Notes under the pieces: generated by a model
The model's database searches: none
What the model was told of the DNA's origin: nothing
What the model saw: the letters and a program-made list of their open reading frames with translations, nothing else
Program-made: the position numbers and the translations under genes
Assembly (NCBI GenBank): GCA_945948915.1
Contig: CAMFCQ010000015.1
Span: 1-43,313 of the forward strand
Direction: 5' to 3'
From: an uncultured Clostridia bacterium
GTDB taxonomy: Bacteria > Bacillota > Clostridia > Christensenellales > Aristaeellaceae
DNA: 43,313 bases
Shown: in pieces, positions 6,116-25,938 of the stretch
How positions within the stretch are numbered: position 1 is the first letter of the stretch
Layout: each line of letters begins with the position of its first letter

Positions 6116-6133
6116 TATTGTGTTTCCTCCTCA

Positions 6134-9124: not shown

Positions 9125-9144
9125 GTATTTCTCCTTTTCAATTT

Positions 9145-10074: not shown

Positions 10075-10092
10075 GCAATCACTCCAATCAAA

Positions 10093-10115
10093 AGCACACC
10101 CTCATCAGGTGTGCT
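10093..10115 (-). terminator. Hairpin between parB and the sortase gene
   Basis: An 8-bp stem (AGCACACC, 10093-10100, with 10108-10115) and 7-nt loop are followed on the minus strand by TTTTG. It overlaps the parB stop codon. The T-tract is short, so it probably terminates only partly. Confidence 0.5.
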
Positions 10116-11041: not shown

Positions 11042-11819
11042 GCTGCAACACCTCCTTTGTCAGTGCATGATATGCTTGAGCCACCTTACCCGCGGGATCA
11101 TGTGCGAAGATGCTTTTTCCTTCGGCGCTGATTTCCGCTGCGCGCACTGAACGGGGGATCTCCGTATCGAACACCTTGATTCTGGAACCATAGGTGCTGC
11201 GAAGCAGAGAAGCAATCTCGCGACTGTTGTTTGTACGGCTATCCACCATGGTCAGCAGAACACCATCAATGCGCAGCTTGTGGTTGATGTTTCGCTTTAC
11301 GCGGGCAACGGTAGCCAAAAGCTGCTCAACGCCTTTCGCCGAAAGATACTGAGCCTGCACGGGAATGATGATACGGTCGGCGGCAGCCAGGGCGTTGATC
11401 GTCATCATTCCAAGAGACGGGCTACAATCCAGCAGAATGTGATCATATTCCTTGCTGTAATTGGCAAGCATCTGCTTGAGTGTAGTCTCCCGGCTCATGG
11501 CGTTGACGAGGGACACTTCCATGCCGGCCAGAGTAATGTTCGCAGGAAGAATATCCACGCCTTCCTCATGGTGAAGAATACCTTCCCCGGGAGAAAGTGG
11601 CACATCATTGAGTACCTTGCCCATGAGATCGGTCAGCGTTACTGGCAGGGCATCCGGCTGAGGATGTCCCAGACTGATGGTTGCACTGCCTTGGGGATCA
11701 CAATCAGCAATGAGCACCTTCTTTCCTTCACGGACAAGGTCAATGCCGAGATTCACGCAAGTGGTGGTCTTACCTGTGCCTCCCTTTTGATTGACTAACC
11801 CGATAATCGATGCATTCAT
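10998..11819 (-). CDS. parA: ParA-family partition ATPase
   Basis: A 273-aa deviant-Walker ATPase. The motif KGGTGKTT lies near the N-terminus (MNASIIGLVNQKGGTGKTT), ADCDPQGSAT is Walker A', and LLDCSPSLG is Walker B. I chose the ATG at 11819 because GGAGGG lies just upstream and the family normally starts immediately before the P-loop strand; an in-frame extension to 11888 has no such support. The promoter carries an iteron array and the leader a terminator-like hairpin, so expression is probably controlled by ParB binding and by attenuation. Confidence 0.92.
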   Translation of the reverse strand: MNASIIGLVNQKGGTGKTTTCVNLGIDLVREGKKVLIADCDPQGSATISLGHPQPDALPVTLTDLMGKVLNDVPLSPGEGILHHEEGVDILPANITLAGMEVSLVNAMSRETTLKQMLANYSKEYDHILLDCSPSLGMMTINALAAADRIIIPVQAQYLSAKGVEQLLATVARVKRNINHKLRIDGVLLTMVDSRTNNSREIASLLRSTYGSRIKVFDTEIPRSVRAAEISAEGKSIFAHDPAGKVAQAYHALTKEVLQLEKQRQKHQSDLIR

Positions 11820-11845
11820 CTTATCCCTCCGATCATTTGAGTAAG

Positions 11846-11875
11846 AAAAAACACCGCCAGACTGCTCTGACGATG
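11846..11875 (-). terminator. Terminator-like hairpin in the parA leader
   Basis: On the minus strand a 10-bp stem with two G-U pairs (11866-11875 with 11852-11861), a GCAG loop and a TTTTTT run (11846-11851) lie between the parA promoter and its ribosome site. This is a complete intrinsic terminator inside a leader of about 75 nt, so an attenuation step is likely. The anti-terminating factor cannot be seen. Confidence 0.6.
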
Positions 11876-11901
11876 TCCTCAACTCCATCTTTCACGCTAT
11901 C

Positions 11902-11909
11902 ATTATAGC
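11902..11909 (-). promoter_or_regulatory. parA promoter (extended -10)
   Basis: The minus strand reads TGCTATAAT, an extended -10 with a perfect TATAAT (11902-11907). No good -35 lies at 17 bp, as expected for an extended -10 promoter. The iteron array begins 11 bp upstream, so a bound protein would cover the -35 region. Confidence 0.6.
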
Positions 11910-11919
11910 ACAGCTTTTT

Positions 11920-11969
11920 GTCCAGTTCTGTCCAGAATTGTCCAAAACTGTCCAGAGTTGTCCGAACTT
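11920..11969 (-). repeat. Five 10-bp iterons at the parA promoter (candidate parS/operator)
   Basis: GTCCA recurs on the plus strand at 11920, 11930, 11940, 11950 and 11960, an exact 10-bp period; the fifth copy is GTCCG. On the minus strand this reads as GGACA spaced by one helical turn. Five sites on the same DNA face beside the parA promoter fit an autoregulatory operator and centromere for the ParAB system. Confidence 0.75.
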
Positions 11970-11970
11970 T

Positions 11971-12393
11971 TCAAGCGGACTGCGTTTGAAGTATGCCTTT
12001 TAGCTCTGACAATGCTATTTCATGCCGACTATAGATACTGGATCGACTGAGATGAAGCTCCTTCGCAATGGCTGGCATCCGCTTATGCTCCACATACCGC
12101 AGCTTCAAAATATCGGCGTTCATGGGATCATCAATCCTTTGAAGAAGAGAACAAACCTGACTGCGCAAGTCACTGTACTGCTGTTCCGCTTCGGCATACT
12201 CCTGCTCAGCTTCCATCAGGCGGATAACAGCGTTCTCGTTGGCGGTAACGTCGCGCGATCTTGAAACACATTCACCGCCCAGCACTGCCGAGGCTTTTGC
12301 CGCTGCTGCCCGGCAGAAGGATACCCGCTCTTCCGCTGCAGTCAGGCGGCGTTCTGCAAACCGCAGCTTTTCAAAAAGCGTATCAACCGGCAT
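11971..12393 (-). CDS. DUF1492/sigma-70-like HTH protein
   Basis: A 140-aa protein with a long N-terminal coiled-coil-like helical region (about 1-85) and a C-terminal helix-turn-helix resembling sigma region 4 (DILKLRYVEHKRMPAIAKELHLSRSSIYSRHEIAL, given by its key turns). This layout matches small DUF1492/ArpU-like phage and ICE proteins, which are thought to act as transcriptional regulators. The ATG at 12393 follows AAAGGAGGTGA closely, and ATGTAATG couples it to the end of the upstream 107-aa gene. It ends 2 bp before the iteron array, so it may be co-regulated with parAB. Confidence 0.7.
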   Translation of the reverse strand: MPVDTLFEKLRFAERRLTAAEERVSFCRAAAAKASAVLGGECVSRSRDVTANENAVIRLMEAEQEYAEAEQQYSDLRSQVCSLLQRIDDPMNADILKLRYVEHKRMPAIAKELHLSRSSIYSRHEIALSELKGILQTQSA

Positions 12394-12716
12394 TACATCA
12401 CCTCCTTTTGCAGTCTGTCCAGCAGATCGTATCCATCCAAATCCGACAGAACCGAAAACCATCTGGAAAAGAAGAAATTGCCGGCAGCATCCTGTTTCTC
12501 TTTATATTGCTGCAAGCGCTGCGCCTGACAAGCCAATTCAGATGGAGTCATTTCCTTATTCCTTTTGAGGCGTCCACGGATTCGTTTCATCATCCGGGCG
12601 CGGTTTCGATAATCCTTGACTGCCTGAATGATAATGGCGTCGGCCAGCGCCTGCCATGATTCTGCTTCTACCTTGACGTTACCGTCCACGGCACTCTTTG
12701 TTTTTTCTATAATCAA
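12393..12716 (-). CDS. Small ICE-type hypothetical protein
   Basis: A 107-aa basic protein rich in helices (KDYRNRARMMKRIRGRLKR) with no recognised domain. The start is TTG at 12716 with GGAGAG upstream. It overlaps the next gene in an ATGTAATG junction, showing translational coupling with the DUF1492-like protein. The basic central helix suggests nucleic-acid contact, but I cannot name a function. Confidence 0.6.
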   Translation of the reverse strand: MIIEKTKSAVDGNVKVEAESWQALADAIIIQAVKDYRNRARMMKRIRGRLKRNKEMTPSELACQAQRLQQYKEKQDAAGNFFFSRWFSVLSDLDGYDLLDRLQKEVM

Positions 12717-12758
12717 TCAAAACTCTCCTATATAATTCACATCTTCCATGAAACAGAA

Positions 12759-12790
12759 AAAGCCAACTATTCTTACGAATAGTCAGCTTT
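12759..12790 (-). terminator. Terminator of the Rex-like module
   Basis: On the minus strand AAAGC, a two-base bulge, a 7-bp stem (ACTATTC with GAATAGT), a 4-nt loop and GCTTTTTC form a good intrinsic terminator 21 nt after the stop of the membrane gene. It insulates the AT-rich module from the parAB operon. Confidence 0.7.
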
Positions 12791-12810
12791 CTTATCACAA
12801 AGCCTTATCT

Positions 12811-13530
12811 TCAATCGCCGGTATTGTTCCCATTCTGATCATTCACGATTTTCTTAAGAGCATAATCGATCAAGATCAGTTCCTTTTGCCTTAATTCTTC
12901 TTCCTTTTCTGCATTCTCATCCTCATCTGTGAAATACACAAAACGACAGGCAACATTAGTTCTAAACAGAATAATTGTATTGTATATTGTACTCTTAATC
13001 TCGCACAACACTCGTAAGCTGAACACTAGAAATACGCATATCAATATAGAAGCCAGTACACAGTCAAAGACGAAGTTTTCAGTAAGCCGATAATCATCAG
13101 GGATACACTTCATAGCAATCAGTATCGATAAAGAAAGCAAAATACTCATGAAATACAGAAATAAAACGCTCTCGAAGTATTCTGTACATACTCTTAGTTG
13201 GCTTTTGCCGTCAGATTCAGGAGAATTCGCAAGTAGCTTCATGAAATCGTTATTTAGGAATGACAATAAGATAGAGTACACTGTAAAAAGCACTCCAAAT
13301 ACAGCGATCTGAATAGTAAGGAAAATTTCGATGACATTTCGAAATACTTCTACTGTTTCTTCATGAAAGCCAATGCCAATTGAAAGAACAAGTGCAAGTA
13401 TTCCAGAATAAACCCAAACTCCCCAGTTCTTCTTGTCAGGTTTTATTTCCTTCAAAGCATTGATAAGAAGTTTTTTTGCAGGTGGTACAGTTTTGTATTC
13501 GTCAATTATCTTTTTGAAACTCTCATTCAC
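12811..13530 (-). CDS. Four-helix membrane protein, partner of the 319-aa protein
   Basis: A 239-aa protein with four predicted membrane segments (about residues 38-55, 68-90, 120-140 and 155-175), in two pairs separated by a soluble loop, and a charged C-terminal tail. The start is GTG at 13530 and overlaps the upstream gene by 8 nt, so the two are translated together. The base composition is clearly more AT-rich than the flanks. A soluble protein paired with a four-pass membrane protein resembles the lambda RexA-RexB layout and several abortive-infection pairs. I do not recognise a specific family, so the defence role is inference. Confidence 0.7.
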   Translation of the reverse strand: MNESFKKIIDEYKTVPPAKKLLINALKEIKPDKKNWGVWVYSGILALVLSIGIGFHEETVEVFRNVIEIFLTIQIAVFGVLFTVYSILLSFLNNDFMKLLANSPESDGKSQLRVCTEYFESVLFLYFMSILLSLSILIAMKCIPDDYRLTENFVFDCVLASILICVFLVFSLRVLCEIKSTIYNTIILFRTNVACRFVYFTDEDENAEKEEELRQKELILIDYALKKIVNDQNGNNTGD

Positions 13531-14482
13531 ACCCCATCATCCTTATACTGTCAATTATTTTTTTAATGCTTGGTTTGAATCGTTCATATAGTGCCCTGTT
13601 TTCATCGCTGGTTTGCTTTACAACCGGATCACTCATAGCTTGCTCAATGAAGTAAGCGTCATTCGCGGGTTCAATATTTTGAGATAGTGGCACTTGCTTC
13701 TGCGACACAAAAGATTCCTCTTTTATCCTTGTCTTATTTCCATGAGAGTCGATTACATCCATCGTTACTGTCGCCAATCCCGAAGAACTATTCAACAATC
13801 CTTGAATTTCCTTTTTTGACTCTGGTGAAGTAAACTCAAGTAAAGCATGTTTACTTTTCGTCTTCTTCATTTGCTCATCAATGCCCCGCGCAATAAGCTC
13901 TGGATTTATGTCATTATTTAGAGGAAAGAACTTCATTCGGAGCTTCTTGACTTGCTTAATCGTTTTTAGGACCTCCTCAATATCATTTGGAAGAGGGATA
14001 TCTACGATATTCACAAACGCATACGGAAGCCGTTGATTTTTGTTTTCCTCTTTAAGGTTATGCTGTCGAACATAGTGATGAAGCATCTTGTTGACTGTCA
14101 CCTGAAAACTTCTTACATCCGGACTCTTACCTTCGTTTCTAATGAGAATCATTTTGTGGTTCTTCAAAAATATAATAAATCTCGAATAAGGTGCTGTAGG
14201 GACCTTTTGGGGAGAGTCAACCAGCTTACCATCCTGAATCGTAGTAAGAACGTTATATTGCGTATCCTTAATATAATTTCCCACTAATACATACTCATCG
14301 TTGATTTCCTTTATTTCAACATCACTTACATAAAAGGAAGCCATGCCTCCAGAGTTAACTCTTCGAAAGTCTTTTTCAAGGAAAGCCGGAAACACAATGT
14401 CAGCAAAATGAGTAAGCATCGGCTCATCATTCGGGCCGAATGTAACATTGAAGTTTGCGTAATGCATGATCTTTTCTGGCAT
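13523..14482 (-). CDS. Soluble protein of an AT-rich two-gene module (possible RexA-like sensor)
   Basis: A 319-aa soluble protein of mixed beta and alpha segments. The beta-rich N-terminal half (about 1-140) includes YSRFIIFLKNHKMILI, a central helical part has many Lys, and a Ser/Thr-rich beta segment ends in RIKEES before a helical tail. No enzymatic motif is visible. It is translationally coupled to a four-pass membrane protein. RexA/AbiEi-like sensor proteins paired with a pore former have this arrangement, but this is an analogy from architecture. The ATG at 14482 has only a weak ribosome site; ATG at codon 6 (MHYANF) is an alternative. AT-rich codons mark it as a separate acquisition. 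Confidence 0.7.
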   Translation of the reverse strand: MPEKIMHYANFNVTFGPNDEPMLTHFADIVFPAFLEKDFRRVNSGGMASFYVSDVEIKEINDEYVLVGNYIKDTQYNVLTTIQDGKLVDSPQKVPTAPYSRFIIFLKNHKMILIRNEGKSPDVRSFQVTVNKMLHHYVRQHNLKEENKNQRLPYAFVNIVDIPLPNDIEEVLKTIKQVKKLRMKFFPLNNDINPELIARGIDEQMKKTKSKHALLEFTSPESKKEIQGLLNSSSGLATVTMDVIDSHGNKTRIKEESFVSQKQVPLSQNIEPANDAYFIEQAMSDPVVKQTSDENRALYERFKPSIKKIIDSIRMMGCE

Positions 14483-14804
14483 GGCAAGTCAACTCTTTCT
14501 TAAGTGATAGTTTTGTATTACTTCTCTTACGCCACCCTCCTTTCCTGCTAATTCAAACAATTTATTGCCTATTGTGGAATTAGATTACCCGTTCTTACAC
14601 TAATCCTTTAACATACCGTTCCAATAAACGCAGCATTCGTAGCCAGCAAGGTTTCTTCGTCAGTCAAATCAGCATTGTTTTTTGATTCCTATCCATCATA
14701 TCCTCTTAGTATATGCAGTCATCAGTTGTTTACAAACCTTACTGAGCATCATCACCTATTCCAATCTTCAGCGAGATGTCCGCCGCCAAGTTATCCGTAT
14801 GAAA
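14483..14804. other. Gap with degenerate coding remnants
   Basis: This 322-bp stretch holds no intact gene. On the minus strand, short stop-bounded reading frames look protein-like: one includes LTDEETLLATNAAFIG and another ends ELAGKEGGVREVIQNY just before the 319-aa gene. They lie in different frames, as in a frameshifted relic. A good AAAGGAGG site (about 14538-14545) is followed by no start codon at proper spacing. Confidence 0.35.
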
Positions 14805-15728
14805 TTACAGAATCCCTGCGCTTCGTACCTCCGCATCGTAGTAATTGCTCATCGTCGTTGGTGCATGATAAAGCGTCGTCATCAGGTACTGCCGGATATT
14901 TCGCACCTCCGTGTGCTTCTTGTCCAGGCTCAGGAAGACGTACTCGATGTGATGATAGCTCAGCTTTTTGAATCGGCTCTTGACCACCTCAGCGGGGTAA
15001 TTCTCCCCTGCGACCTTGATATACGGCTTGCGGCTGCACAGCGTTTCCGTCATGATCTCCACGATCTCATCCAGACGTTCATGGTCGTGCGGCGTGTCCA
15101 GCGCATCGTATTCGATTTGCTCCTTGACCTCAGCAAGTGTTCTCCGGTACTCCCGTGCATCCATCTGATCCATATCGCTCATGCCCGTATCGGCTTGCTG
15201 TGCCCTTTGTTTTTGGATCATGATTGGATCAGGATTTGATTTTTGGGTATTTAATTCATACGTATTGGATACCTGAGTATTTAATTGCGCAGGCTTTTCC
15301 GTATACGGCGCATCCGTTCGCGACGTTACCGTATCCGGGGAAACCATATACGGGTTTTCCGTACATGGTGAAGCCGTATCCGGTTCGTCCGTGCCCTGCG
15401 AAACCTTATCCGGCAAATCCGCTTCCGTTTCCTTGTGTGGGCTCTCATAGACGACATACTCCGTGTCCGAGATGCGCCCGCTCCTGTCGCGCAGGCGGTG
15501 ACGGGCGAGATACCCGGCGCTTTCCAGCTCGCGCAGGGCTGCGCCGATGCTGTCCACGCCTTCCTTGCAGATGGCAGCCAGTCCGCGCGTCGTGTAATTC
15601 CAATCCTCCGGCAGGGACAGAATAACGGACAGCAAGCCCTTGGCCTTGAGGGATATTCCCCTGTCCTTGAGATGAACATTGCTCATGACCGTGTAATTCC
15701 GATTCTTCTCTACGCGAAAAACAGCCAC
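14805..15728 (-). CDS. RepA-like HTH protein with DUF6017 C-terminus
   Basis: A 307-aa protein. The N-terminal winged helix (about 1-100, starting MAVFRVEKNRNYTVMSN and including LSLPEDWNYTTRGLAAIC) resembles replication-initiator or DnaD-type domains. A low-complexity Thr/Pro linker (about 105-160) follows, then a C-terminal DUF6017-like domain (about 190-300, with YHHIEYVFLSL). Such proteins are hallmark genes near one end of Tn1549-type ICEs and may start replication of the circular form. The start is GTG at 15728 behind GGAGGA. Its position 410 bp from the tRNA-derived repeat fits the element end. Confidence 0.8.
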   Translation of the reverse strand: MAVFRVEKNRNYTVMSNVHLKDRGISLKAKGLLSVILSLPEDWNYTTRGLAAICKEGVDSIGAALRELESAGYLARHRLRDRSGRISDTEYVVYESPHKETEADLPDKVSQGTDEPDTASPCTENPYMVSPDTVTSRTDAPYTEKPAQLNTQVSNTYELNTQKSNPDPIMIQKQRAQQADTGMSDMDQMDAREYRRTLAEVKEQIEYDALDTPHDHERLDEIVEIMTETLCSRKPYIKVAGENYPAEVVKSRFKKLSYHHIEYVFLSLDKKHTEVRNIRQYLMTTLYHAPTTMSNYYDAEVRSAGIL

Positions 15729-16137
15729 GGTGAATCCTCCGTTTCATGAAATGGTCATTATGAAAAAATGTCGAAAGCACTGAGCCATCGGCGCTACATT
15801 CGTAGTATTCTCCATGAGCACTGCGTTATTGATCCTGTGATCTTCCGTGCTGCCAGCAGATCATATCTTCTATCAAGGCAATTACAAGAGTATAGAGAAA
15901 AGGCGCTCATTTCTGAACGCCTTCGGGAACTCTATTCATTTGCCTCAAAGTATATCCTGTGCTAATCGTCACGCGCTAATGCAGCGTTCTCTGCTACACC
16001 CCTGCTAATCAGGTGTATACGACATCATTGGACTAACGTTGACCCACAGTGCAGATAAATTCATTCTTTCTGGGGAATATGGTGAATTAACCTGCTTCTA
16101 TGCGCATAGAGGGCTGTATAGCAATCCTACCATGGCA
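15729..16137. other. Element end region without genes
   Basis: No supported gene. A 10-bp hairpin with a TTTC loop (15900-15909 with 15914-15923) reads on the minus strand as a GAAA-loop terminator followed by TTTTC, which would stop leftward read-through into the RepA-like gene. An ACACC...GGTGT inverted repeat lies near 15996-16016. A 65-codon plus-strand frame at 15768 has no ribosome site. Confidence 0.45.
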
Positions 16138-16224
16138 TTGGTAAGGATGAGGTCGCCAGTTCGAATCTGGCTATCAGCTCCATAGAAATCACCTTCCGAT
16201 ATAGACGCGGAGGGTGATTTTTTT
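16138..16224 (+). repeat. att-like copy 1: tRNA-Thr(GGT) 3' fragment plus terminator
   Basis: An 87-bp sequence identical to 19743-19829. The first 45 nt are the 3' part of a tRNA-Thr: anticodon loop TTGGTAA, 3' anticodon stem GGATG, T arm GCCAG-TTCGAAT-CTGGC, acceptor strand TATCAGC and TCCA. The rest is a hairpin terminator (AATCACC with GGTGATT) and seven T. The 5' half of a tRNA is missing: upstream TGGCA cannot pair with GGATG. This is how the displaced 3' end looks after site-specific integration into a tRNA gene. Confidence 0.9.
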
Positions 16225-16732
16225 GTGCTGTTATTGGGTTATTTGGCTTGCCCTCCTCTCTTGATCAGAGATTGCCTCTTGCGTCAGACCTCGGCTTTCA
16301 GCTAATTCGATGCTCTTGATGATTATGCGCCGGATGAATGTGCATGGCCGCCTGCTGACAAATCCTGCTCACACGCAGAAATCTTTGCGTCAGGCGCGCC
16401 GCTGTGTATCGGGCGTCAGGGATTGCAGACGTTTTGAGGAATAAATATCATCTGTTCATTCGTCGGATATAGCTATTGAAAAGATGGATTATTCCAGAAA
16501 AAGCATAGAAATATGAAAAAACAGTTGATTTCCATCAAGACGTGTAGTAGAATGTAATGCATATAGAGATGGTTATTTGGCCTGCTTTTGATTTGGGGTT
16601 TACACAAACAAAAGGAGCTGAAGACCTCTAGGCAGCCTTTTAAAGAAGATCATCGGCTGACGTGCGGAAAGCGGGCTTGATCCCGCGGCGGCGTCAGGGG
16701 ACAGGCAATCCGGATATGCCGAGGGCGGAGAC
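16225..16732. other. Leader region of the RiPP cassette
   Basis: This 508-bp stretch has no gene I can support. It holds the promoter at 16525-16553 and a leader of about 175 nt to the PqqD-like start. TTGAT-TTCC-ATCAA overlaps the -35 and is a possible operator. The first 200 bp after the att copy look non-coding. Confidence 0.5.
16525..16553 (+). promoter_or_regulatory. Promoter of the RiPP cassette
   Basis: TTGATT (16525-16530), a 17-bp spacer and TAGAAT (16548-16553) form a good sigma-A-type promoter about 180 bp upstream of the PqqD-like gene. A short inverted repeat (TTGAT...ATCAA) overlaps the -35. Confidence 0.6.
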
Positions 16733-17026
16733 ATGGCAGAAAGCAGGAAAAGGTATCGGATCGGGCAGGAATACGTATTCCGGAGGGTGGCAGGCGAATA
16801 CGTCATCATCCCGGTGGATACGGACAGCCCGATGGAAAATACGCTGATGGCGCCGAATGAGACAGCCGCCTTTATCTGGAAATGCTTTGAGGAGCCCCGC
16901 ACGCTGGAAGAGGTCGTTGCCATGGGCATGCAGGAATACGATGTCGCGGAGGAAACGCTGTACAGCGCCGTGAAGGAATTCGTGACAGAATCGCTGAGAT
17001 ACAGGATTTTGGAGGAGGCGGAGTAA
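16733..17026 (+). CDS. PqqD-like peptide chaperone (RRE)
   Basis: A 97-aa protein with the PqqD fold. It begins with basic strands (YVFRRVAGEYVIIPVD), has the typical middle MAPNETAAFIWKCFEEPRTLEEVV, and ends in a helix. PqqD-type RiPP recognition elements bind the leader of a substrate peptide and present it to a radical SAM enzyme. The stop TAA touches the ATG of the next gene, so the two are coupled. The ATG at 16733 has GGCGGAG upstream. Confidence 0.85.
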   Translation: MAESRKRYRIGQEYVFRRVAGEYVIIPVDTDSPMENTLMAPNETAAFIWKCFEEPRTLEEVVAMGMQEYDVAEETLYSAVKEFVTESLRYRILEEAE

Positions 17027-17539
17027 ATGAAACAGGAATGGAAAGATCCGAGAATTGATGTTCAGAGGTTTATCCCGAGTGAATACGTGGCATCTTGCTT
17101 GGCGTTTGAATCAGGCATTGTTGTCACAGGTAGTGTGTCAGGCATATTGACAGATTGTATGTGCAAACCGGATGGTGCGGGCGCAGGTTGGAAACCACCA
17201 TATGAATGGCAGAGTCCTGATGGGGGGTTCAAGGACGATCATTTCGATTATTTAAGTGGTAATGATGATCGCATTCCTGAGAACGGGAAAAACGGATGGT
17301 ATTCAGATACGGACGAATATGATTTGCTCCCCGATAAACTTAAGGCGCTTATTCATAAGGATTATATAGGACAGATAGCGACGCTTCTTAAAAATTATAT
17401 GTTTACTACAGATGGCGACGGATTTGGAAATACAGTATCAAAGGATTTAAGCAAGAAAGTTTTTTACTGGGGCAATTGGCCAACGCAGATTACGGCAAAT
17501 AATTGTCAAGATTATGGTGTCGGCCCGAACGGCTCCTGA
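17027..17539 (+). CDS. Putative radical-SAM substrate (RiPP precursor-like), 170 aa
   Basis: A 170-aa protein whose N-terminus (W5, P8, VQRFIP, EYVASC to Cys24) resembles the leader-like start W-x-x-P-x-I-x-V-x-x-F-x-x-x-EYVA-x-C seen in clostridial proteins next to PqqD and radical SAM genes. The rest is unusual for a precursor: long, rich in Gly, Asp, Trp and Tyr, with only Cys44, Cys46 and Cys160 beyond Cys24. It has no signal peptide or Gly-Gly cleavage site. It lies between the PqqD-like and SPASM genes and ends at a terminator. It is the best candidate for the modified product; the type of modification cannot be read from sequence. Confidence 0.7.
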   Translation: MKQEWKDPRIDVQRFIPSEYVASCLAFESGIVVTGSVSGILTDCMCKPDGAGAGWKPPYEWQSPDGGFKDDHFDYLSGNDDRIPENGKNGWYSDTDEYDLLPDKLKALIHKDYIGQIATLLKNYMFTTDGDGFGNTVSKDLSKKVFYWGNWPTQITANNCQDYGVGPNGS

Positions 17540-17564
17540 TGATTTTAATCGATATAAAGCATTC

Positions 17565-17591
17565 AACGGATGGCGCTTTGCCATCCGTTTT
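17565..17591 (+). terminator. Internal terminator between substrate and maturase genes
   Basis: A perfect 10-bp stem (AACGGATGGC, 17565-17574, with 17580-17589), a 5-nt loop and a TTTT tail. Peptide operons often place such a partial terminator after the precursor so that it is made in excess over the enzyme. Confidence 0.75.
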
Positions 17592-17609
17592 GTAAATTGA
17601 GGAGAGTCA

Positions 17610-18728
17610 ATGGAAGAGATGGATTACCGGGGAAATATCGAGCTCATGCTCTGCAAAAGGGCGAACGAACAGCGCATCCCCATCTATGGAAATCTGGAGC
17701 TGACGCCCCTGTGCAACATGAACTGTGACATGTGCTTTGTCCGGCTTTCCCCGCAGGAGATGCACAGGCAGGGAAGGCTGAGGAGCGGGGAAGAATGGAT
17801 CGCCATGGCCCGGGAGATTGCCCGGGCGGGCACGCTGTTTGTGCTGCTGACCGGCGGGGAGCCGCTGCTGCATCCGGATTTCCGCGAGATTTACCTCGCC
17901 CTCAAGAAGATGGCGATGATCCTGACCATTAACACCAACGGGACGCTGATCGATGAGGAATGGGCGGATTTCTTTGCCCGGCACAAGCCCCGCAGGATCA
18001 ACATCACCCTGTACGGAAAGGACGAGGCGACCTATGACCGGCTGTGCCATTATCCGGATGGATACCGGCGCGCGAGAAACGCCGTGCGGCTCTTGATGGA
18101 ACGCCATGTGGATGTCAAGATCAACGGCAGCATCACGCCGGGGAATTTTGATGAGCTGGATGAATTGTGCGGGATTGCCGAGGAAACGAATACGGCGTGG
18201 AAGTTTGACACCTATATGTATCCGGCGGCCAAAGAACGCCCGGCGGGCTTTGACCGGCAGGCCCGCCTGTCCCCGCAGCAGGCGGCGGCGGCATGGGTAA
18301 GGGTGATGCAGAGAAAAGAAAAGGAGCATTTCCTCCGGGAGGCCGCCCGGATGCTGGCGCTGGGCCATGCGCCGGCGGGGGAGGCGGTTCCCTCCCCGGT
18401 GAAATGCCGGGCGGGAAAAAGCTATTTTATGATCAACTGGCAGGGAAAGCTGCGGCCCTGCGTGCTGATGGCAGAGCCGCAGACGGATGCCTTTGAGAAG
18501 GGCTTCGCCCATGCGTGGGAAGAAATCACAGACAGGGTATCCCGGATACAACTGAATGCCAGATGCAGCGCCTGTACCATGCGGGAAGTCTGTGAGCCGT
18601 GTGTTGCCAGCGCCTATTGGGAAACGGGCGCATTTGACGGCGTGCCGGAATACAGGTGCCAGTATACCCGCGAGATCCTGCGGCTGCTCGAGGACGCCTG
18701 CGAGAAGGCGGAGGAAGGAAACGGGTAA
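17610..18728 (+). CDS. Radical SAM/SPASM peptide maturase
   Basis: A 372-aa enzyme. The radical SAM motif CxxxCxxC is Cys35, Cys39 and Cys42, and GGEPLL follows for SAM binding. The C-terminal SPASM domain has Cys266, Cys284, the Cys319/322/328/331 cluster and a later Cys near 349, enough for two auxiliary Fe-S clusters. Relatives such as PqqE, AlbA and MftC form C-C or thioether crosslinks in peptides. The ATG at 17610 follows GAGGAGAG. Together with the PqqD-like protein and the 170-aa protein it forms a minimal RiPP cassette with no visible transporter or protease. Confidence 0.88.
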   Translation: MEEMDYRGNIELMLCKRANEQRIPIYGNLELTPLCNMNCDMCFVRLSPQEMHRQGRLRSGEEWIAMAREIARAGTLFVLLTGGEPLLHPDFREIYLALKKMAMILTINTNGTLIDEEWADFFARHKPRRINITLYGKDEATYDRLCHYPDGYRRARNAVRLLMERHVDVKINGSITPGNFDELDELCGIAEETNTAWKFDTYMYPAAKERPAGFDRQARLSPQQAAAAWVRVMQRKEKEHFLREAARMLALGHAPAGEAVPSPVKCRAGKSYFMINWQGKLRPCVLMAEPQTDAFEKGFAHAWEEITDRVSRIQLNARCSACTMREVCEPCVASAYWETGAFDGVPEYRCQYTREILRLLEDACEKAEEGNG

Positions 18729-18830
18729 AGCGGATGCCGTGCCCGGCGCGTGAGCCGGGCAAAAGCACACGGCACGCTGAACCAGGGCGGCTTCGCGCGC
18801 TGAAGGGCTGGTCAGCGGTTTTCCAGCGGC

Positions 18831-18977
18831 GCCATAGGTTGGAAAGTCCCTGCGCATTTGGCTGATGGTCTTATACGCCTTGGAGTTCAGAACACTCGCT
18901 TCTTTGGCAAACTTCTTTGTGATGACGATCGTGTTTTCTTCAAAGTTGATTCGGTATGGCATGCAGTTGTTGCTCAT
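18831..18977 (-). pseudogene. N-terminal fragment of an ICE-type hypothetical gene
   Basis: A real start is visible on the minus strand: AAAGGAG before ATG at 18977, then about 49 codons of plausible protein (MPYRINFEENTIVITKKFAK...AYKTISQMRRDFPTYG). I recall similar starts in small proteins of clostridial mobile elements, usually longer. After about 18831 the frame continues for 300 codons only as the antisense shadow of the radical SAM gene. The gene therefore seems cut off where the RiPP segment begins. Confidence 0.6.
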
Positions 18978-19031
18978 TTGGGGTTGCTCCTTTCTTTGTG
19001 GTTGGATTTCTTCTATCAACCTTACAATTGC

Positions 19032-19069
19032 ATTATATCAGCATAGATGTACGTTAATCAGTACATCTA
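19032..19069 (-). promoter_or_regulatory. Promoter and palindromic operator of the truncated gene
   Basis: The minus strand has TATAAT (19032-19037), and just upstream a perfect 9-bp inverted repeat TAGATGTAC/GTACATCTA (19044-19052 and 19061-19069, 8-nt centre). It overlaps the expected -35 area and so looks like a repressor operator kept from the parent element. Confidence 0.5.
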
Positions 19070-19369
19070 TAGCATAAATCATTCAATAAATAATATACTA
19101 ATACAATTTCATGCAATGTAATGCATTTTAGAAATCCCATATACTTTCAGATTTTTCATAGGGTAGACAGGTCTTCGTGAATTGGACAAAGTAGAGTCCG
19201 CGCATCACTATATTAACGTATAACTCGACTGTATAGAATTGTGTTGATGCATAATTGCCACGCTGCATTAACTTCCATTTTTCAAATGATCATTGAAAAA
19301 AATGATATCGACTTGATCGAATAAACATACGAGATGCTTTGTTTTGCTCAGAGTTGATATGAGGATGAT
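19070..19369. other. AT-rich stretch without genes
   Basis: Low-GC sequence with many stops in all frames and no promoter, RNA or repeat that I can support. It resembles decayed mobile-element DNA. Confidence 0.4.
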
Positions 19370-19648
19370 TCAAAATTCTAAAAATTGTTCAATTGCCAAA
19401 AAGAGGCCCGAAAGCCTCTTTTGGGTAAGATAGATTTTAGCGGAAGAAACAAGCCATCCTTCTTTTTCATCGTCTTGACCAAGTGGGAGATTATGATAAC
19501 ATCTCGCAGGTTGCATGAACAGCTTTCCGGCCATCAGATCTTCTGCATATTCTTTTTTGGCGTAAAGTTGATCAGATATTTCTTTATTCTCAATTACTCG
19601 TGTTTTGTCATTTTTATCGCATAACACATCTTGGAAAGGGGGTAGCAC
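19370..19648 (-). pseudogene. Possible fragment of a mobile-element or defence-type gene
   Basis: A 92-codon minus-strand frame contains a protein-like core, KKEYAEDLMAGKLFMQPARC, similar in style to the N-terminal 'GKLFMN' segment of a family found on gut bacterial mobile elements. The frame has no convincing ribosome site, the rest looks unrelated, and it ends early. I read it as a frameshifted remnant with low certainty. Confidence 0.35.
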
Positions 19649-19742
19649 AGTATCTCTTTAGCGCCAGTCAGTTGGACCTCAAATTTTGCATTATGAATAT
19701 ATCAATAGAATTAGTTTTGTTTTTATTATTTGTTTTTTATCC

Positions 19743-19829
19743 TTGGTAAGGATGAGGTCGCCAGTTCGAATCTGGCTATCAGCTCCATAGAAATCACCTT
19801 CCGATATAGACGCGGAGGGTGATTTTTTT
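19743..19829 (+). repeat. att-like copy 2: tRNA-Thr(GGT) 3' fragment plus terminator
   Basis: Base-for-base identical to 16138-16224. Identity to a tRNA-Thr extends slightly further left here: ATCC precedes TTGGTAA and pairs with GGAT, giving most of an anticodon stem. No D arm or 5' acceptor lies upstream in the T-rich flank, so it is not a functional tRNA. It marks the right boundary of the inserted DNA. Confidence 0.9.
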
Positions 19830-20107
19830 ATGGTATTGCTTACTTTTTGAGGACTGCCTCCGTGTGGGGGCGGGCTCTTTCTGCGTTGATGGGGATGCGC
19901 TGTATACGTTATTCACCGAAAAACAATCACAAAACTGAATTTCTTGGATCTCAAAAAATCCTTGTGCTATCAGGTTTTTTGAGCCCTTTTTTTAATCACA
20001 AATAATCACAAACCGCTTAAATCGTGTTCATGACCATACGGGCTTTATTCATTCCGTGCTTGCGGAATTCCACATAACATCTTTCGGTCAACAATCCACA
20101 ACTTGGA
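19830..20107. other. Relic DNA after the insertion boundary
   Basis: No intact gene. A short minus-strand frame ending RKHGMNKARMVMNTI (stop near 20020) reads like the C-terminus of a lost protein. The region continues into an ArdC-like fragment. Confidence 0.35.
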
Positions 20108-20215
20108 TTAACTTCGAACAACTAATCTACAACAATCATCAAAAGTTTGAGTTTTTGCTTTGAACATATTCTTTTCGGTGATGATGCGGGCTGTGATTTT
20201 TGCGTAAATATCCAT
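20108..20215 (-). pseudogene. ArdC-like antirestriction gene, N-terminal remnant
   Basis: The ATG at 20215 follows AAAAGGAGC and opens a 35-codon frame beginning MDIYAKITARIITEKN. This matches the usual opening of ArdC-type proteins (MDIY-x-KIT-x-RII), zincin-like antirestriction proteins of about 300 aa carried by conjugative elements. The match is lost after about 17 residues and the frame stops at 20108. Confidence 0.55.
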
Positions 20216-20263
20216 ATGCTTTGCTCCTTTTGATTGCGGGGAGCAAGGCTTTGTGGTACATTA

Positions 20264-20269
20264 TATAAT
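20264..20269 (+). promoter_or_regulatory. -10 element of the ROK regulator promoter
   Basis: A perfect TATAAT lies 31 bp before the ATG at 20300. No consensus -35 is found at 16-18 bp, so the promoter may be weak or activator-dependent. Confidence 0.5.
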
Positions 20270-20299
20270 AGTGGAAGAATTGTGAAAGGCGGTGGGCCT

Positions 20300-21436
20300 A
20301 TGAATCCTGAAGCCGCGGGACGCAGCCGGAGGAAGCTGACCATCAGGAGCGTGTATCAGTGTCTGTACGAATCGAAGGAAGGCTGCACCAAGGCGGAGCT
20401 GGCGCAGAAGCTGGGACTCAGCCTGCCCACCATCTATCAATGCATTGCCGAGCTGATGGGAAAGGGCCTCATCTGCTACGCCGGCGAGCTGCAGTCCACC
20501 GGCGGTCGCCGTCCTCAGTGCCTGCAGGTGGTAGCGGACGCCCGGGTAGCCGTCGGCATCTCCCTGATGGAAGACCGGATCCGCATGGTCGTCACCGATC
20601 TGTATCTGAAGGAGCTGCATTATCGCAACCTCCGCCACAATCTGCAGCTGCAGTCCGATGAGCTTGCCGCCTTCCTGGCCGAGAGCCTGGAACAGTTCCT
20701 TCACGACAGCGGCACGGACCGGAAAAAGCTGCTGGGTATCGGCATTGCCATTCCCGGCGTCATCTCGCCGGACCGGAAGCGGCTGCTCCTTGCGCCCACC
20801 CTAGGTCTGCGGAATCTGAACCTCGACTCCCTGACACAGCGGATTTCCTACCCGGTGTTCTGGGAAAACGACGGCACCTGCAGCGGCAAGGCGGAGATGT
20901 TCGTCCGGGGCGGACAGGCCAATATGGCGTATCTGTCCCTGGAGGACGGCGTGGGCGGCGCGGTGCTGATCAGCGGCAAGCCCTATCCGGGCGAGCAGCT
21001 GCGCAGCGGCGAGTTTGGTCACATGTGCGTGGAGCCGGCGGGTCTGCCCTGTGCCTGCGGGCGCCGGGGCTGTCTGGAGGCCTACTGCTCCGCCCGGCGG
21101 TTCCAGAATACCCTCGGCGTCTCTCTGGAGGATTTCTTCAAGGGTCTGCGCAGGCATGTCCCGGAGTATGAGAACCTGTGGTATGACCTGCTGCGGCACC
21201 TGGCCATCGGCGTCAACAACATCCGCATGGTGCTGGACTGCGACGTGGTGCTGGGCGGCTATCTCTCCGAATACCTGGAGCCGTATCTGCCCCAGCTTCA
21301 GGCTTATGCCGCCGCCAACAATACCTTTGAATCCAATGCCGATTATCTGCGCATGAGCGTTCTGCGCCGCCATACCGTTCCCCTGGGCGCGGCGCTGTAT
21401 TTCATTCAGGAATTCCTGAACAACAGCGAGATCTGA
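20300..21436 (+). CDS. ROK-family transcriptional regulator (XylR/NagC type)
   Basis: A 378-aa protein. The N-terminal winged helix (about 12-62, KAELAQKLGLSLPTIYQCIAEL) is followed by a ROK sugar-binding domain with ENDGT, the GEFGHM motif and the zinc motif CACGRRGCLE. Such proteins repress sugar operons until the sugar binds. I moved the start to the ATG at 20300 because GGCGGTGG precedes it and a TATAAT lies inside the longer frame. It faces the pentose operon across a shared bidirectional terminator, so it is the likely regulator of chvE-gguAB-xylB. Its operator has not been identified; a palindrome at 29911-29924 is one candidate. Confidence 0.88.
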   Translation: MNPEAAGRSRRKLTIRSVYQCLYESKEGCTKAELAQKLGLSLPTIYQCIAELMGKGLICYAGELQSTGGRRPQCLQVVADARVAVGISLMEDRIRMVVTDLYLKELHYRNLRHNLQLQSDELAAFLAESLEQFLHDSGTDRKKLLGIGIAIPGVISPDRKRLLLAPTLGLRNLNLDSLTQRISYPVFWENDGTCSGKAEMFVRGGQANMAYLSLEDGVGGAVLISGKPYPGEQLRSGEFGHMCVEPAGLPCACGRRGCLEAYCSARRFQNTLGVSLEDFFKGLRRHVPEYENLWYDLLRHLAIGVNNIRMVLDCDVVLGGYLSEYLEPYLPQLQAYAAANNTFESNADYLRMSVLRRHTVPLGAALYFIQEFLNNSEI

Positions 21437-21475
21437 ACGGATTCGCACCGAAGTGTGCCCTGTAATTCTCACAAC

Positions 21476-21506
21476 AAAAGGCGTGACCGCATTCGTCACG
21501 CCTTTT
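21476..21506. terminator. Bidirectional terminator between convergent genes
   Basis: A perfect 12-bp stem AAAAGGCGTGAC/GTCACGCCTTTT (21476-21487 with 21495-21506) and 7-nt loop give U-tracts in both directions. It ends the ROK gene on the plus strand and the sugar operon on the minus strand. Confidence 0.88.
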
Positions 21507-21561
21507 GCATATGCTGCTGTCTGATGAACAACACGCACACTTCAGTGTTTGCTCATGATCG

Positions 21562-22002
21562 TCATGCCCGTTCGCCCTGCTGCTTGAGCGCCGCCAGCAC
21601 CTGCTTCTGCGCGGGCAGCCGCTCCCATCGGGGATAGGCCTTCTCATACCACGCATGCAAAACCCTGGCGTCCTCGGGACGCAGGCAGGCAATGGCCTGC
21701 CGGGTCAGGCCCTGAACCGCAATGAGCATCCAGTACACCGACGTATGCACATCCGGATAGGCGAATGGCGCCCGATAGATGAAATCAAGCATCTGAAAAA
21801 TCTGCGTGGCGTCCGCCTGATCGGGCAGAGCTTCAAGCAGCGCCTTCATCGCTTCGACAAACGCATCATGACAGGGTGCGTTTCCCAGCTTTTCTCCCAT
21901 GCCGAGCAGCCCGTCAGCGGGCTTCAGGCGTTCCTTCGCCGCTTCAACCTGCTGAAAATAGGTTTCGTACAGCTCAAGGAGCTGCTCCATGGCATCAGGC
22001 AA
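21562..22002 (-). CDS. Unknown 146-aa protein, last gene of the sugar operon
   Basis: A helical, soluble protein of 146 aa, or 142 if the ATG at 21990 is used. I do not recognise a family. The TTG at 22002 lies 7 nt after GGAG and overlaps the isomerase stop by 8 nt, which argues for the TTG start and for translational coupling. Tight coupling to the isomerase suggests an accessory role in the same pathway; the sequence shows no catalytic motif. Confidence 0.65.
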   Translation of the reverse strand: MPDAMEQLLELYETYFQQVEAAKERLKPADGLLGMGEKLGNAPCHDAFVEAMKALLEALPDQADATQIFQMLDFIYRAPFAYPDVHTSVYWMLIAVQGLTRQAIACLRPEDARVLHAWYEKAYPRWERLPAQKQVLAALKQQGERA

Positions 22003-23461
22003 AGGGATTCTCCGTCGGATACGGCAGGGCCTTGGGCTGGTTGTAGGCGATGTCGGCCACGCCGAAGTACTTGAGCACCTCGAAGAGCGCCTTGCCGCAG
22101 TGCGCGAAGGCCACCGCGCCGTGGTGCGGATAGCGCTTCTGGATCAGCACATGGCGGTAGAAGCGGCCCATCTCCGGGATGGCGAACACGCCGATGCCGC
22201 CGAAGGAACGGGTCGCCACCGGCAGCACCTCGCCCTCGGCGATGTAGGAGCGCAGGTTGCCCTCGCTGTCGCACTGCAGGCGGTAGAAGGTGATGTCCGA
22301 CGCGGCAATGTCGCCCTCGAGCGTGCCGCGGGTGAAGTCCGGCTCGCCGCCGTTCTCGAGCAGGCGGTTCTGGATCAGCTGGTACTTGACCGCGCAGCCG
22401 CCGCACATCTTGCAGCTGGGCGTGTTGCCGCAGTGGAAGCCCATGAAGGTGTCGGTGATCTTATAGTCGAACTTGCCGGCGATGTCCTCGTCGTAGATGT
22501 ACTTGGGCACGGAGTTGTTGATGTCCAGCAGCGTCACCGCGTCGCCGGTGATGCACGCGCCGATGTACTCGCTCAGCGCGCCGTAGATGTCCACCTCGCA
22601 GGCGACCGGAATGCCGCGGGAGGCCAGACGGGAATTGACGTAGCACGGCTCAAAGCCGAACTGCTCCGGGAACGCCGGCCAGCACTTGTCGGCAAAGGCC
22701 ACGTACTCCCTCGCGCCCTTGTGGCTCTCAGCCCAGTCCAGCAGCGTCAGCTCAAACTGCGCCATGCGCTCGAGCAGGTCGGTGTAGATCTTGCCGTCCA
22801 TCTCCTTCTGCATGTCGGCCACGACCTCCGGGATGCGCGCGTCGCCGGCGTGCTGCTTGTAGGCCACCAGCAGATCCAGCTCGGAGTTCTCCTCGATCTC
22901 CACGCCCAGCTCATACAGGCCCTTGATCGGCGCATTGCAGGCGAAGAAGTCCTGCGGACGCGGGCCGAAGGTGATGATCTTGAGATTCTTCACGCCGATG
23001 ATCGCGCGGGCGATCGGCACGAACTCGCGGATCATGTCCGCGCACTCCTCGGCGGTGCCCACCGGATACTCCGGGATGTACGCCTTCAGATGGCGCATGC
23101 CCAGGTTGTAGGAGCAGTTCAGCACGCCGCAGTAGGCGTCGCCGCGGCCGTTGATCAGGTCGCCGTCGCCCTCGGCCGCCGCGATGTACATCGTCGGGCC
23201 GTGGAACTTCTTGCACAGCAGCGTTTCCGGCGTCTCCGGGCCGAAGTTGCCCAGGAAGACAACCAGCGCGTTGACGCCGTTTGCGCGCACGTCCGCAATC
23301 GCCTTGACCGCGTCCTGCTCGTTTTCCACGGTGATCGGGCACTCATAGATGCCCTCGCCGTAGGCGGCGACGATGTTCTTGCGGCGCTGCGTGGACAGCG
23401 CGATGGGGAAGCAGTCGCGGGAAACCGCGATGATGCCCAGCTTTACCTCAGGAATGTTCAT
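21995..23461 (-). CDS. L-fucose/L-arabinose isomerase family protein
   Basis: A 488-aa enzyme of the fucose/arabinose isomerase superfamily, shorter than classical FucI (about 590 aa). Its opening (KLGIIAVSRDCFPIALS), the stretch NALVVFLGNFGPETPE, the Cys-rich CGNTPSCKMCGGC and the C-terminal PEMGRFYRHVLI and PHHGAVAFAH are like proteins annotated as the L-fucose/L-arabinose isomerase family. It would convert an aldose to a ketose using a divalent metal. With xylulokinase as the next enzyme, the ketose may be D-xylulose or a close relative, so the substrate could be D-xylose or D-lyxose rather than fucose. The ATG at 23461 follows AAAGGAGA. Confidence 0.82.
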   Translation of the reverse strand: MNIPEVKLGIIAVSRDCFPIALSTQRRKNIVAAYGEGIYECPITVENEQDAVKAIADVRANGVNALVVFLGNFGPETPETLLCKKFHGPTMYIAAAEGDGDLINGRGDAYCGVLNCSYNLGMRHLKAYIPEYPVGTAEECADMIREFVPIARAIIGVKNLKIITFGPRPQDFFACNAPIKGLYELGVEIEENSELDLLVAYKQHAGDARIPEVVADMQKEMDGKIYTDLLERMAQFELTLLDWAESHKGAREYVAFADKCWPAFPEQFGFEPCYVNSRLASRGIPVACEVDIYGALSEYIGACITGDAVTLLDINNSVPKYIYDEDIAGKFDYKITDTFMGFHCGNTPSCKMCGGCAVKYQLIQNRLLENGGEPDFTRGTLEGDIAASDITFYRLQCDSEGNLRSYIAEGEVLPVATRSFGGIGVFAIPEMGRFYRHVLIQKRYPHHGAVAFAHCGKALFEVLKYFGVADIAYNQPKALPYPTENPFA

Positions 23462-23496
23462 GGTACATTGTCTCCTTTCATCTTGTCGGTGTCAAA

Positions 23497-24135
23497 TTAC
23501 AGGTATCGAGCGATGTCGATATTTTCTCCGGTCAGGCCAACCTTTGCGCCGCTTTTCGCCTCGTCGGATTCGGGGTGCGCCAGCAGCCACTTGTTGCGCG
23601 CGGTCATGATTTCGTCCTCCGGGGTCCGGTTTTCCATGTCCGGGCGCTCGGTGTTGGTCAGCCACGGCAGGGCAACCAGCACGCGGAAGCCCTTGCCCGC
23701 GTCACAGTGGCAGGGCGCATAGTGCAGCGTGGTGGCGAAGACCTCCACGAGCACCCCGGCAGGCACCCTGAACGCCTTGACCTTGGCGGTGTCCAGCAGG
23801 CCATTCTCGATTTCTTCCTGTTTCGCCAACAACAGGATAAAATCCTCCGTACCCAGATTAAATTCGCTGTCGCGATGGTATTCCAGGCAGTTGAGGCGGG
23901 TATTGTGGCCGTTGCACCAGCCCAGCTGGACGGGCATGCCGCCGAAGCAGTGCTCGGAAATCTCCATCTCGGCAGGCAGCTCCTGCAGTGCGGGATCCGT
24001 GGGCACATAGCCCACGCCCTCCGGCAGCGGCGTCGTCTTCAGCGCGGCGAGGATCTCCTGCACCGCTTCGTCAAGGCCGGTGACGACCTGACCATAGGCC
24101 TTGAATTCAGGATCAAAAACAGAGTAGATTTTCAT
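23497..24135 (-). CDS. DUF4867 family protein
   Basis: A 212-aa protein matching DUF4867, a cupin-like family found in clostridial pentose/fucose operons. Visible elements are MKIYSVFDPEFKAYG at the start, the conserved CNGHNTRLNCLEYHRDSEFNLG (His and Glu residues suited to metal binding) and the beta strand VPAGVLVEVFATTLHYAPC. A role in sugar isomerisation or epimerisation has been suggested by context; it has no activity I can cite. The start at 24135 is preferred over 24147 because GGAG lies 6 nt upstream. It lies between the small membrane protein and the isomerase. Confidence 0.78.
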   Translation of the reverse strand: MKIYSVFDPEFKAYGQVVTGLDEAVQEILAALKTTPLPEGVGYVPTDPALQELPAEMEISEHCFGGMPVQLGWCNGHNTRLNCLEYHRDSEFNLGTEDFILLLAKQEEIENGLLDTAKVKAFRVPAGVLVEVFATTLHYAPCHCDAGKGFRVLVALPWLTNTERPDMENRTPEDEIMTARNKWLLAHPESDEAKSGAKVGLTGENIDIARYL

Positions 24136-24160
24136 GGTGTTCTCCATTTCGTTGGTGATC

Positions 24161-24406
24161 TCAGGATGCTTCGTCGTTTTCGGTGATCCGGTCGCCGGCG
24201 GCGGATTTTCTTCCCTTCCGATATTGCATCAGGGTATAGGCCGCGAAGGCCGCGCCCGCCAGCGCCAGCGCGCCGCCGGCGCAGTACGCCGTCAGATCCG
24301 ACATAGCGCTGCTGCCGCTCATCTGCGTTTTGCAGATATCCCAGCCCAGATAGACCAGATATCCACATACCAACAGGCGAAGCATGATCCGGGTGTCTTT
24401 GTTCAT
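24161..24406 (-). CDS. Small two-helix membrane protein
   Basis: An 81-aa protein with two hydrophobic segments (about residues 7-25 and 38-58) and a basic then acidic tail. The ATG at 24406 follows GGGAGGG at good spacing; the upstream ATG at 24424 lacks one. It sits 14 nt after xylB within the operon. I do not recognise it. Such small proteins may be accessory to the sugar transporter or unrelated passengers. Confidence 0.6.
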   Translation of the reverse strand: MNKDTRIMLRLLVCGYLVYLGWDICKTQMSGSSAMSDLTAYCAGGALALAGAAFAAYTLMQYRKGRKSAAGDRITENDEAS

Positions 24407-24420
24407 GCGCGCCCTCCCGC

Positions 24421-25896: not shown

Positions 25897-25938
25897 AGCA
25901 ACCACTCCATCCGTAAGGAAAGTCAATGGGAATCTGAT

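Follow-up and report, generated by a model that had tools for sequence, protein, structure and literature searches.

The stretch of DNA analysed here, referred to as the window, is the whole of contig CAMFCQ010000015.1 (C15, 43,313 nt) from the metagenome-assembled genome (MAG) GCA_945948915.1 of an uncultured Clostridia bacterium (2,902,589 bases in 158 contigs, 88.7% complete). Two copies of the 3' part of tRNA-Thr(GGT), taken as attachment (att) sites and named att1 and att2, divide the window into the right part of an integrative element, a 3.5-kb segment with genes for a ribosomally synthesized and post-translationally modified peptide (RiPP), and the chromosomal flank. The favoured model, to which a probability of roughly 0.8 is assigned, is a two-member tandem array at a single tRNA-Thr(GGT) gene in the order tRNA, live-looking element, att1, decayed RiPP element, att2 and chromosome, with a remnant that is predicted to excise poorly. 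The live-looking element would have its integrase at the left end, on contig C2 of the same assembly, and a Rep/ParAB module with arm-like sites at the right end, in the window. Coordinates of all features are collected in Table 1.

Repeated tRNA-Thr ends and the intact tRNA

att1 and att2 lie in the same orientation and are identical over 87 bp (97% over 95 bp according to the repeat tool). The first 45 nt of each copy correspond to tRNA-Thr(GGT) positions 32-76, which begin in the anticodon loop and include the 3' end, and the remaining 42 nt contain a hairpin terminator with a T run. The original prediction, made from the letters of the window, had described both copies in this way and is confirmed here, as is its statement that neither has a 5' half: att2 has only four extra tRNA-matching bases upstream (19739-19742), and no complete tRNA is found in the window by ARAGORN. 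The presumed att core, TTGGTAAGGAT, is located at 16138-16148 in att1. An exact 87-mer that begins at the anticodon loop of a tRNA is not a product of chance.

When the 87-bp sequence was searched against the 2.9-Mb assembly, three matches were obtained, namely att1, att2 and the 3' half of a tRNA-Thr on C2 (45 of the 87 bases). The latter belongs to the single intact tRNA-Thr(GGT) of the assembly (C2:80383-80458). The three 3' copies delimit two intervals, with one displaced fragment for each array member in addition to the intact tRNA. Upstream of the tRNA, C2 encodes leuS (named by Pfam) and then a 209-aa protein without a Pfam family. On the other side, the opposite strand encodes a tyrosine integrase of 491 aa (Pfam Phage_integrase, Phage_int_SAM_3), whose gene terminates about 250 bp past the tRNA, and the contig ends 3.7 kb beyond this gene. 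An intact tRNA-Thr(GGT) beside an integrase, as had been predicted, is therefore present in the assembly. The linkage of the window fragments to this tRNA and their orientation relative to it are probable and rest on synteny with the congener G027, described below.

Of the 29 genomes searched in the genus (own genome included), 10 have fragments of the tRNA-Thr 3' part, which start at position 32 or, in two cases, at 28 or 29. The 45-mer is identical between tRNA and fragment in six of these ten genomes (G000, G010, G028, G014, G026, G011). Exceptions are G021, which differs at 5 positions, G004 and G016, where the fragments are damaged, and G012, where the tRNA is cut by the contig end. In elements about 96% alike, the 45-mer differs from that of G000 by 2/45 in G001 and by 5/45 in G155, which is too little to support more on the sameness of tRNA 3' halves within a genome. 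These data also bear on a simple duplication of the tRNA fragment by homologous or illegitimate recombination, in which the copies would be non-functional and no integrase would be involved. The repeat does include the terminator and so extends over more than an anticodon-loop crossover needs, but the fragments of the ten genomes begin at about one anticodon-loop position, the DNA preceding the 11 fragments compared differs (except that G014 is G012-like), and integrase genes or stubs adjoin tRNA-Thr, which makes a duplication exceedingly improbable.

Two further kinds of partial tRNA-Thr were observed. A copy of the 5' half (positions 1-42), followed by a partly conserved spacer of about 38 nt, immediately precedes the intact tRNA in six loci (L004:8304-8383 on C2, L085, L089, L091, L138 and L155) from at least two genera and with more than one integrase type; it may have been left behind by an element that brought along a complete tRNA. 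Degenerate tRNA-Thr 3' ends that lack the core and are preceded by CTTTTCAAGGAAAAA or a close variant are located just downstream of tRNA-Thr or of a fragment in L098, L103, L106 and L090, which suggests more worn array members.

The integrase family at tRNA-Thr

Homologues of the C2 integrase at E<=1e-60 occur in six of 200 sampled genomes of the family, including its own. In the named genome collection there are nine integrase loci, some of them the same records as in the 200-genome sample. Counting distinct loci with a complete integrase gene and a contig that reaches far enough on the tRNA side, tRNA-Thr(GGT) is found on the C2-like side of the integrase in seven of eight (L004, L091, L105, L138, L139, L140, L155); these seven include an integrase with 99% identity in another genus. 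At the eighth locus, L157, the match is partial (tRNA positions 29-61) and ARAGORN reports no tRNA. Outside this count are L141 (= L156) at a contig end and the truncated genes of L158 and L159. Among the viral contigs scanned, no relative of the integrase or of the radical S-adenosylmethionine (SAM) enzyme of the RiPP segment could be confirmed.

In L159:9242-10132 (G020), a second tRNA-Thr integrase copy at a contig end is cut to a 44-residue fragment and adjoins a transposase gene of the IS66 family. In L158:5851-6542 (JAQXRN010000112.1), only the first 142 residues of an integrase relative are left, adjoining a tRNA-Thr 3' end with a window-type terminator. Different tyrosine integrases are encoded by a 4.3-kb element in G028 (352 aa; L085:7018-11421) and a 5.6-kb element in G010 (378 aa; L086:7766-13459), each extending from tRNA-Thr to a 3' fragment with the same core.

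The unoccupied locus and the chromosomal flank

To the right of att2, the sequence is 74% identical over 293 bp to that 3' of the intact tRNA-Thr in G026. An unoccupied tRNA-Thr site in a related genome, which had been proposed as a check of the array, was found in G027. Its locus reads leuS, tRNA-Thr, homologue of 33290, CvpA (39462), homologue of 40365 and RecF-like (41865), which is the order of the window, and no other tRNA-Thr fragment was found on this stretch from leuS to the RecF-like gene. The G027 locus thus ties the leuS side of C2 to the right flank of the window.

The ROK gene was tried as a synteny probe and failed, its congener matches being at most 39% identical among the matches listed. 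A dispersed repeat family (TCAGGTAACGCTTCGCTCCCTGA...) occurs in the flank at window positions 31536-31700, 35760-36005, 40188-40365 and 42997-43048; it is also found beside leuS on C2 and in several congeners.

Arm-like sites

The motif GCTAAY was chosen by eye on the C2 end, after looking at the sequence. It occurs seven times in the whole window (both strands), and three of these sites are clustered at the right end of the left element, at offsets of -177, -163 and -134 from the att core. At the window's own rate, the Poisson chance of three GCTAAY in 410 bp is 9e-6, for a motif picked post hoc. Alignment of the integrase side shows four sites in all five elements whose integrase is about 90% or more identical (G000, G001, G020, G155, G184). 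More distant ends have three (G200, 62%; L155, 72%), and a decayed copy in G023 has four. What is generally known of tyrosine integrases provides the ground for reading these sites as arm sites, and GCTAAY may have this function here. A 16-base arm profile, tried as a substitute for the short motif, did no better.

Among 23 intact tRNA-Thr loci, the 300 bp 3' of the tRNA contain three or four sites at seven loci; G014 has two and G003 one, and the other 14 loci have none. Six of the seven have a C2-type integrase and the seventh its decayed copy. Plus-strand sites on the element side were counted for 11 3' fragments: att1 and the G014 fragment have three each, and the G012 fragment has two within the 163 bp available. 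The other eight fragments, att2 included, have zero plus-strand sites (172 bp available in G026; one minus-strand site in G004).

Linking C2 with the window

Both types of end are found on one contig of G014, where a 3.1-kb interval reaches from the intact tRNA to a 3' fragment and appears as a deleted relative of the element. Left-type sites lie at +107 and +138 and right-type sites at -177, -145 and -134 in this interval, which also encodes a ParA fragment 66% identical to the window ParA over 102 aa. Beyond the core, the right ends of G014 and the window share two short collinear matches (26 bp at 88% and 12 bp); those of G014 and G012 are 92% identical over 171 bp. Since the deleted G014 relative bears both end types, the integrase end of C2 and the right end in the window are probably the two ends of one kind of element. 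That the C2 integrase and the Rep/ParAB module of the window form one element is likely, not certain.

The RiPP segment as a remnant

The DNA that follows att1 corresponds to that between tRNA and integrase on C2. Between 16225-16429 and C2, 90% identity is reached over the last 115 bp, which include the last 12 codons of the integrase. This att-side DNA and the integrase stub at the start of the segment mark it as the remnant of a C2-family integrase element and not as bare cargo; judged by sequence, the segment derives from an element with a C2-type integrase. The original prediction of a RiPP cassette without recombinase holds for the cassette genes, but the segment is not simple cargo, as it starts with a truncated integrase and decayed arm-like sites. 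At its left end, one GCTAAY (16301) is kept, a deletion of about 41 bp has removed another, and the other two are mutated (GCTGAC at 16354, GCTCAC at 16367). The 400 bp of element-side DNA next to att2 contain no GCTAAY.

The open reading frames (ORFs) of the PqqD-like, precursor-like and radical SAM genes are all intact. Leaders ending in NEYVAAC (F.ANEYVAAC) are encoded between PqqD-like and radical SAM genes on C40 and C113 of the same genome and in G015 and G018. The same cassette order with a similar leader is found at four of six other loci read; the order differs on C70, and no EYVAAC-type peptide was seen at G004. Gene content and like cassettes provide the three components of a RiPP cassette, i.e. 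a precursor, a leader-binding protein and a modifying enzyme. Radical SAM homologues in the genus reach 53%. The 372-aa enzyme has 78 radical SAM matches in NCBIfam, the best 25 of which are each below the cut-off. The PqqD-like protein has five PqqD matches in NCBIfam, all below cut-offs, and the precursor-like peptide has no NCBIfam match at E<=0.1. Among the papers listed on tRNA-Thr elements, EYVAAC leaders and RiPPs combined with cis-mobilizable elements (CIMEs), there was nothing on this locus.

Right of the truncated small gene, about 770 bp without assigned genes lead to att2. Two small ORFs at the segment's right have no Pfam or PHROGs family, and a search of 28 congeners at E<=0.001 gave nothing for P0002. 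A BLAST comparison with the fetched loci gave no match for the segment's right end. This end could therefore derive from a different element, which is one of the points that weigh against the array as outlined above. The segment might then be a fusion, in which a deletion spanning an internal att brought a left end from the C2 integrase family together with the right end of an element that used a different integrase at this core. Such a fusion would be a variant of the array and does not exclude it. The elements with other tyrosine integrases in G010 and G028, the truncation of the small gene and a right end that lacks GCTAAY and matches no right end found are all consistent with it, but nothing positively identifies the second source and the right end has no known relative, so that the fusion is put forward tentatively.

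The same unmatched right end, the exact repeat and a MAG of 158 contigs could also point to a contig misjoined at the 87-bp repeat. However, relatives have matching sequence for two of the four repeat flanks, namely the integrase-side DNA after the tRNA-Thr end and the chromosomal flank (G026), and the right end of the element, before att1, is matched in G014 by site offsets and short matches only. An assembly artefact is considered very unlikely.

Predicted excision

By structure, the RiPP segment resembles a CIME. It has no recombination or transfer genes of its own, only the 12-codon integrase stub, the three main ORFs and the two small ORFs. As attL and attR, the core and the tRNA 3' parts are intact at both ends; the accessory arm-like sites are mostly lost. 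Arm-like sites are present at both the tRNA-side att and att1, and recombination between these two by the C2 integrase would rebuild the intact tRNA and leave the RiPP remnant in place. The element side of att2 is devoid of arm-like sites, and this integrase is therefore expected to excise the composite (tRNA-side att x att2), like the remnant alone (att1 x att2), with low efficiency if at all; for the remnant, excision by its neighbour's integrase is predicted to fail or to be rare. The remnant could still be lost via homologous recombination between the 87-bp repeats.

The original prediction went further and took the segment for a CIME that could be excised by the neighbour's integrase. A working CIME of this kind would be excised or mobilised alone or together with the neighbour. 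Cis-mobilisation of composites of a CIME and an integrative and conjugative element (ICE) is described in PMC5704250; here, the two cores are identical and undamaged, and the left end still has one arm-like site. Against this, loss or mutation has affected three of the four left arm-like sites and none is present at the right end, while the neighbour keeps its sites at both assigned ends, including three at its right end. Excision is therefore doubtful and a working CIME unlikely.

Order of events and points against the array

Under the array model, the RiPP remnant would be the older insertion. An element with a C2-family integrase, which already had or later gained the radical-SAM RiPP cassette, would have inserted first at the anticodon loop. 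Deletions would then have left only the last 12 integrase codons, with loss of three of four left arm-like sites and of the rest of one neighbouring small gene. In a third step, a second element would have entered at the restored tRNA, displacing the remnant. All three RiPP genes are open in a segment whose mobility parts, namely the integrase, the arm-like sites and the neighbouring gene, are broken, so the host may have kept the cassette by selection. A domesticated island of this kind, its cassette retained once stranded at the tRNA, is conceivable, if rather doubtful. One genome per species was compared.

The array that had been proposed (tRNA, ICE, att, RiPP segment, att, chromosome) is well supported in its order, but C2 and C15 are not physically joined and 'ICE' is unproven. 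Further observations count against it. With 158 contigs and 88.7% completeness, more array members could be missing from the assembly. Besides the short matches, the right end of the window element has no BLAST match in the fetched loci. The 16-base profile built on the left ends ranks one right-end site 22nd in the window and the other two outside the best 25. The Rep gene of the window element is outermost, unlike in G011, G014 and G024. As to the flank, 33290 sits 13.5 kb from att2 vs 1.4 kb from the tRNA in G027, a genome labelled with 8% contamination. The genes nearest to att2 (ROK, sugar transporter) are not near tRNA-Thr in the congeners compared, and RecF-type genes are located upstream of tRNA-Thr in G021 and G008.

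The element left of att1

The first claim of the earlier reading, an ICE-like module ending at the first tRNA copy, is correct for the 16-kb module but unproven for 'ICE': no conjugation genes (relaxase, coupling protein, VirB4) were found in the 16.1 kb of the element on the window, the remainder of which is outside the contig. Coupling protein and VirB4-like/type IV secretion system gene sets of the assembly are located on C47 and C88, with no link to the window element. Relatives of these conjugation genes were not found at positions 27.1-86.7 kb of the 86.7-kb G014 contig that bears the ParAB/Rep/SpaA set.

The same gene set is found in G011, G014 and G024 in the order ParA-ParB-Rep-sortase-SpaA, vs Rep-ParA-ParB-sortase-SpaA in the window. 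In G014, the set (L144:6555-19096, L179:329-2734) is flanked by a GGGtGRT gene and by the gene for a large serine recombinase. As it adjoins a serine recombinase there, the ParAB/Rep/SpaA module is not tied to the C2-type integrase.

The contig starts with at least three tandem copies of a 22-bp unit (window positions 1-77). At up to one mismatch, the unit occurs nowhere else in the assembly, and the attempt to join C2 and C15 via this repeat failed, as it is confined to C15.

Table 1 Features of the 43,313-nt window, with positions, strand and basis or remarks
Feature	Position	Strand	Basis or remarks
Right part of integrative element	1..16137	-	Left end beyond contig; Pfam, NCBIfam, PHROGs
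SpaA-type surface protein genes	1637-4015, 4085-6115, 6134-9124	-	Pfam, NCBIfam, PHROGs
Class B sortase	9145-10074	-	Pfam, NCBIfam, PHROGs
ParB	10115-11041	-	Pfam, NCBIfam, PHROGs
ParA	10998-11888	-	Pfam, NCBIfam, PHROGs
Sigma-like protein	11971-12462	-	Pfam, NCBIfam, PHROGs
Replication-initiator-like DUF6017/HTH_36 protein (Rep)	14805-15728	-	Pfam, NCBIfam, PHROGs
Three GCTAAT arm-like sites	15961, 15975, 16004 (cluster 15961..16009)	+	Right end of left element
att1	16138-16224	+	tRNA-Thr(GGT) positions 32-76 and terminator; junction of left element and RiPP segment
Left end of decayed element	16225..16429	+	Homologous to tRNA-Thr-integrase DNA of intact elements; BLASTN and alignment
Integrase stub	16390..16429	-	Last 12 codons and stop (LQSLTPDTQRRA*); homology stops at 16429
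PqqD-like protein, 97 aa	16733..17026	+	Pfam PF05402
Precursor-like peptide gene, 170 aa	17027..17539	+	Conserved-looking leader ending EYVASC
Radical SAM enzyme, probable RiPP maturase, 372 aa	17610..18728	+	Pfam PF04055
Truncated small gene, about first 50 codons	18732..18977	-	Family in 5/28 congeners
att2	19743-19829	+	Second tRNA-Thr 3' part and terminator, identical to att1; chromosomal attR
Chromosomal flank	19830..43313	.	ROK regulator, sugar kinase and ABC transporter, PolyA_pol-head (CCA-transferase-like), three M42 peptidases, CvpA, RecF-like (Pfam SMC_N)

Comparison with known systems

The locus adds a tRNA-Thr site at which elements have accreted in tandem and decayed, from a group that is seen here solely via metagenome assemblies, and it places RiPP genes as cargo in a decayed tRNA-site remnant. 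The core together with the arm-like sites would offer a sequence criterion that separates movable from stranded remnants; labelling every att-bounded segment without an integrase as a CIME would overstate mobility.

The three-step course of integration, decay to a CIME and second integration is given in a review on integrative and mobilizable elements (PMC5704250). In PMC7563491, which treats composite islands of Streptococcus salivarius, 37 composite structures are reported from 75 genomes, with the most decayed members always farthest from the target gene and with CIMEs of 1.2-13 kb that carry cargo. The composite islands share with the window an att-bounded decayed element that lacks a recombinase, has kept its cargo and stands in tandem with a live-looking element; the decayed member is again farthest from the target gene, and the 3.5 kb of the segment are within the CIME size range. 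Differences from the S. salivarius CIMEs are the tRNA-Thr(GGT) target, the uncultured gut Clostridia genus and the radical-SAM RiPP cargo. Moreover, the arm-like sites are decayed here, mobility in cis or trans is doubtful, and conjugation genes of the partner were not found in the 16.1 kb.

Islander (PMC4383910) lists anticodon-loop sites and tandems, each tandem member being required to have an integrase and a tDNA fragment. The intact tDNA, the displaced 3' fragments, the anticodon-loop crossover subsite and the tandem members are common to Islander islands and the present locus. Unlike the Islander tandem members described there, the RiPP remnant has no integrase and would be passed over by that rule. 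The cassette itself resembles radical SAM/PqqD RiPP cassettes in combining a PqqD-like protein, a precursor-like peptide and a radical SAM enzyme, and differs from them in its unmatched precursor and in the sub-cut-off NCBIfam matches of the other two proteins noted above. Overall, the locus fits the published arrays of CIME, ICE and target gene: the arrangement is known and the example is new.

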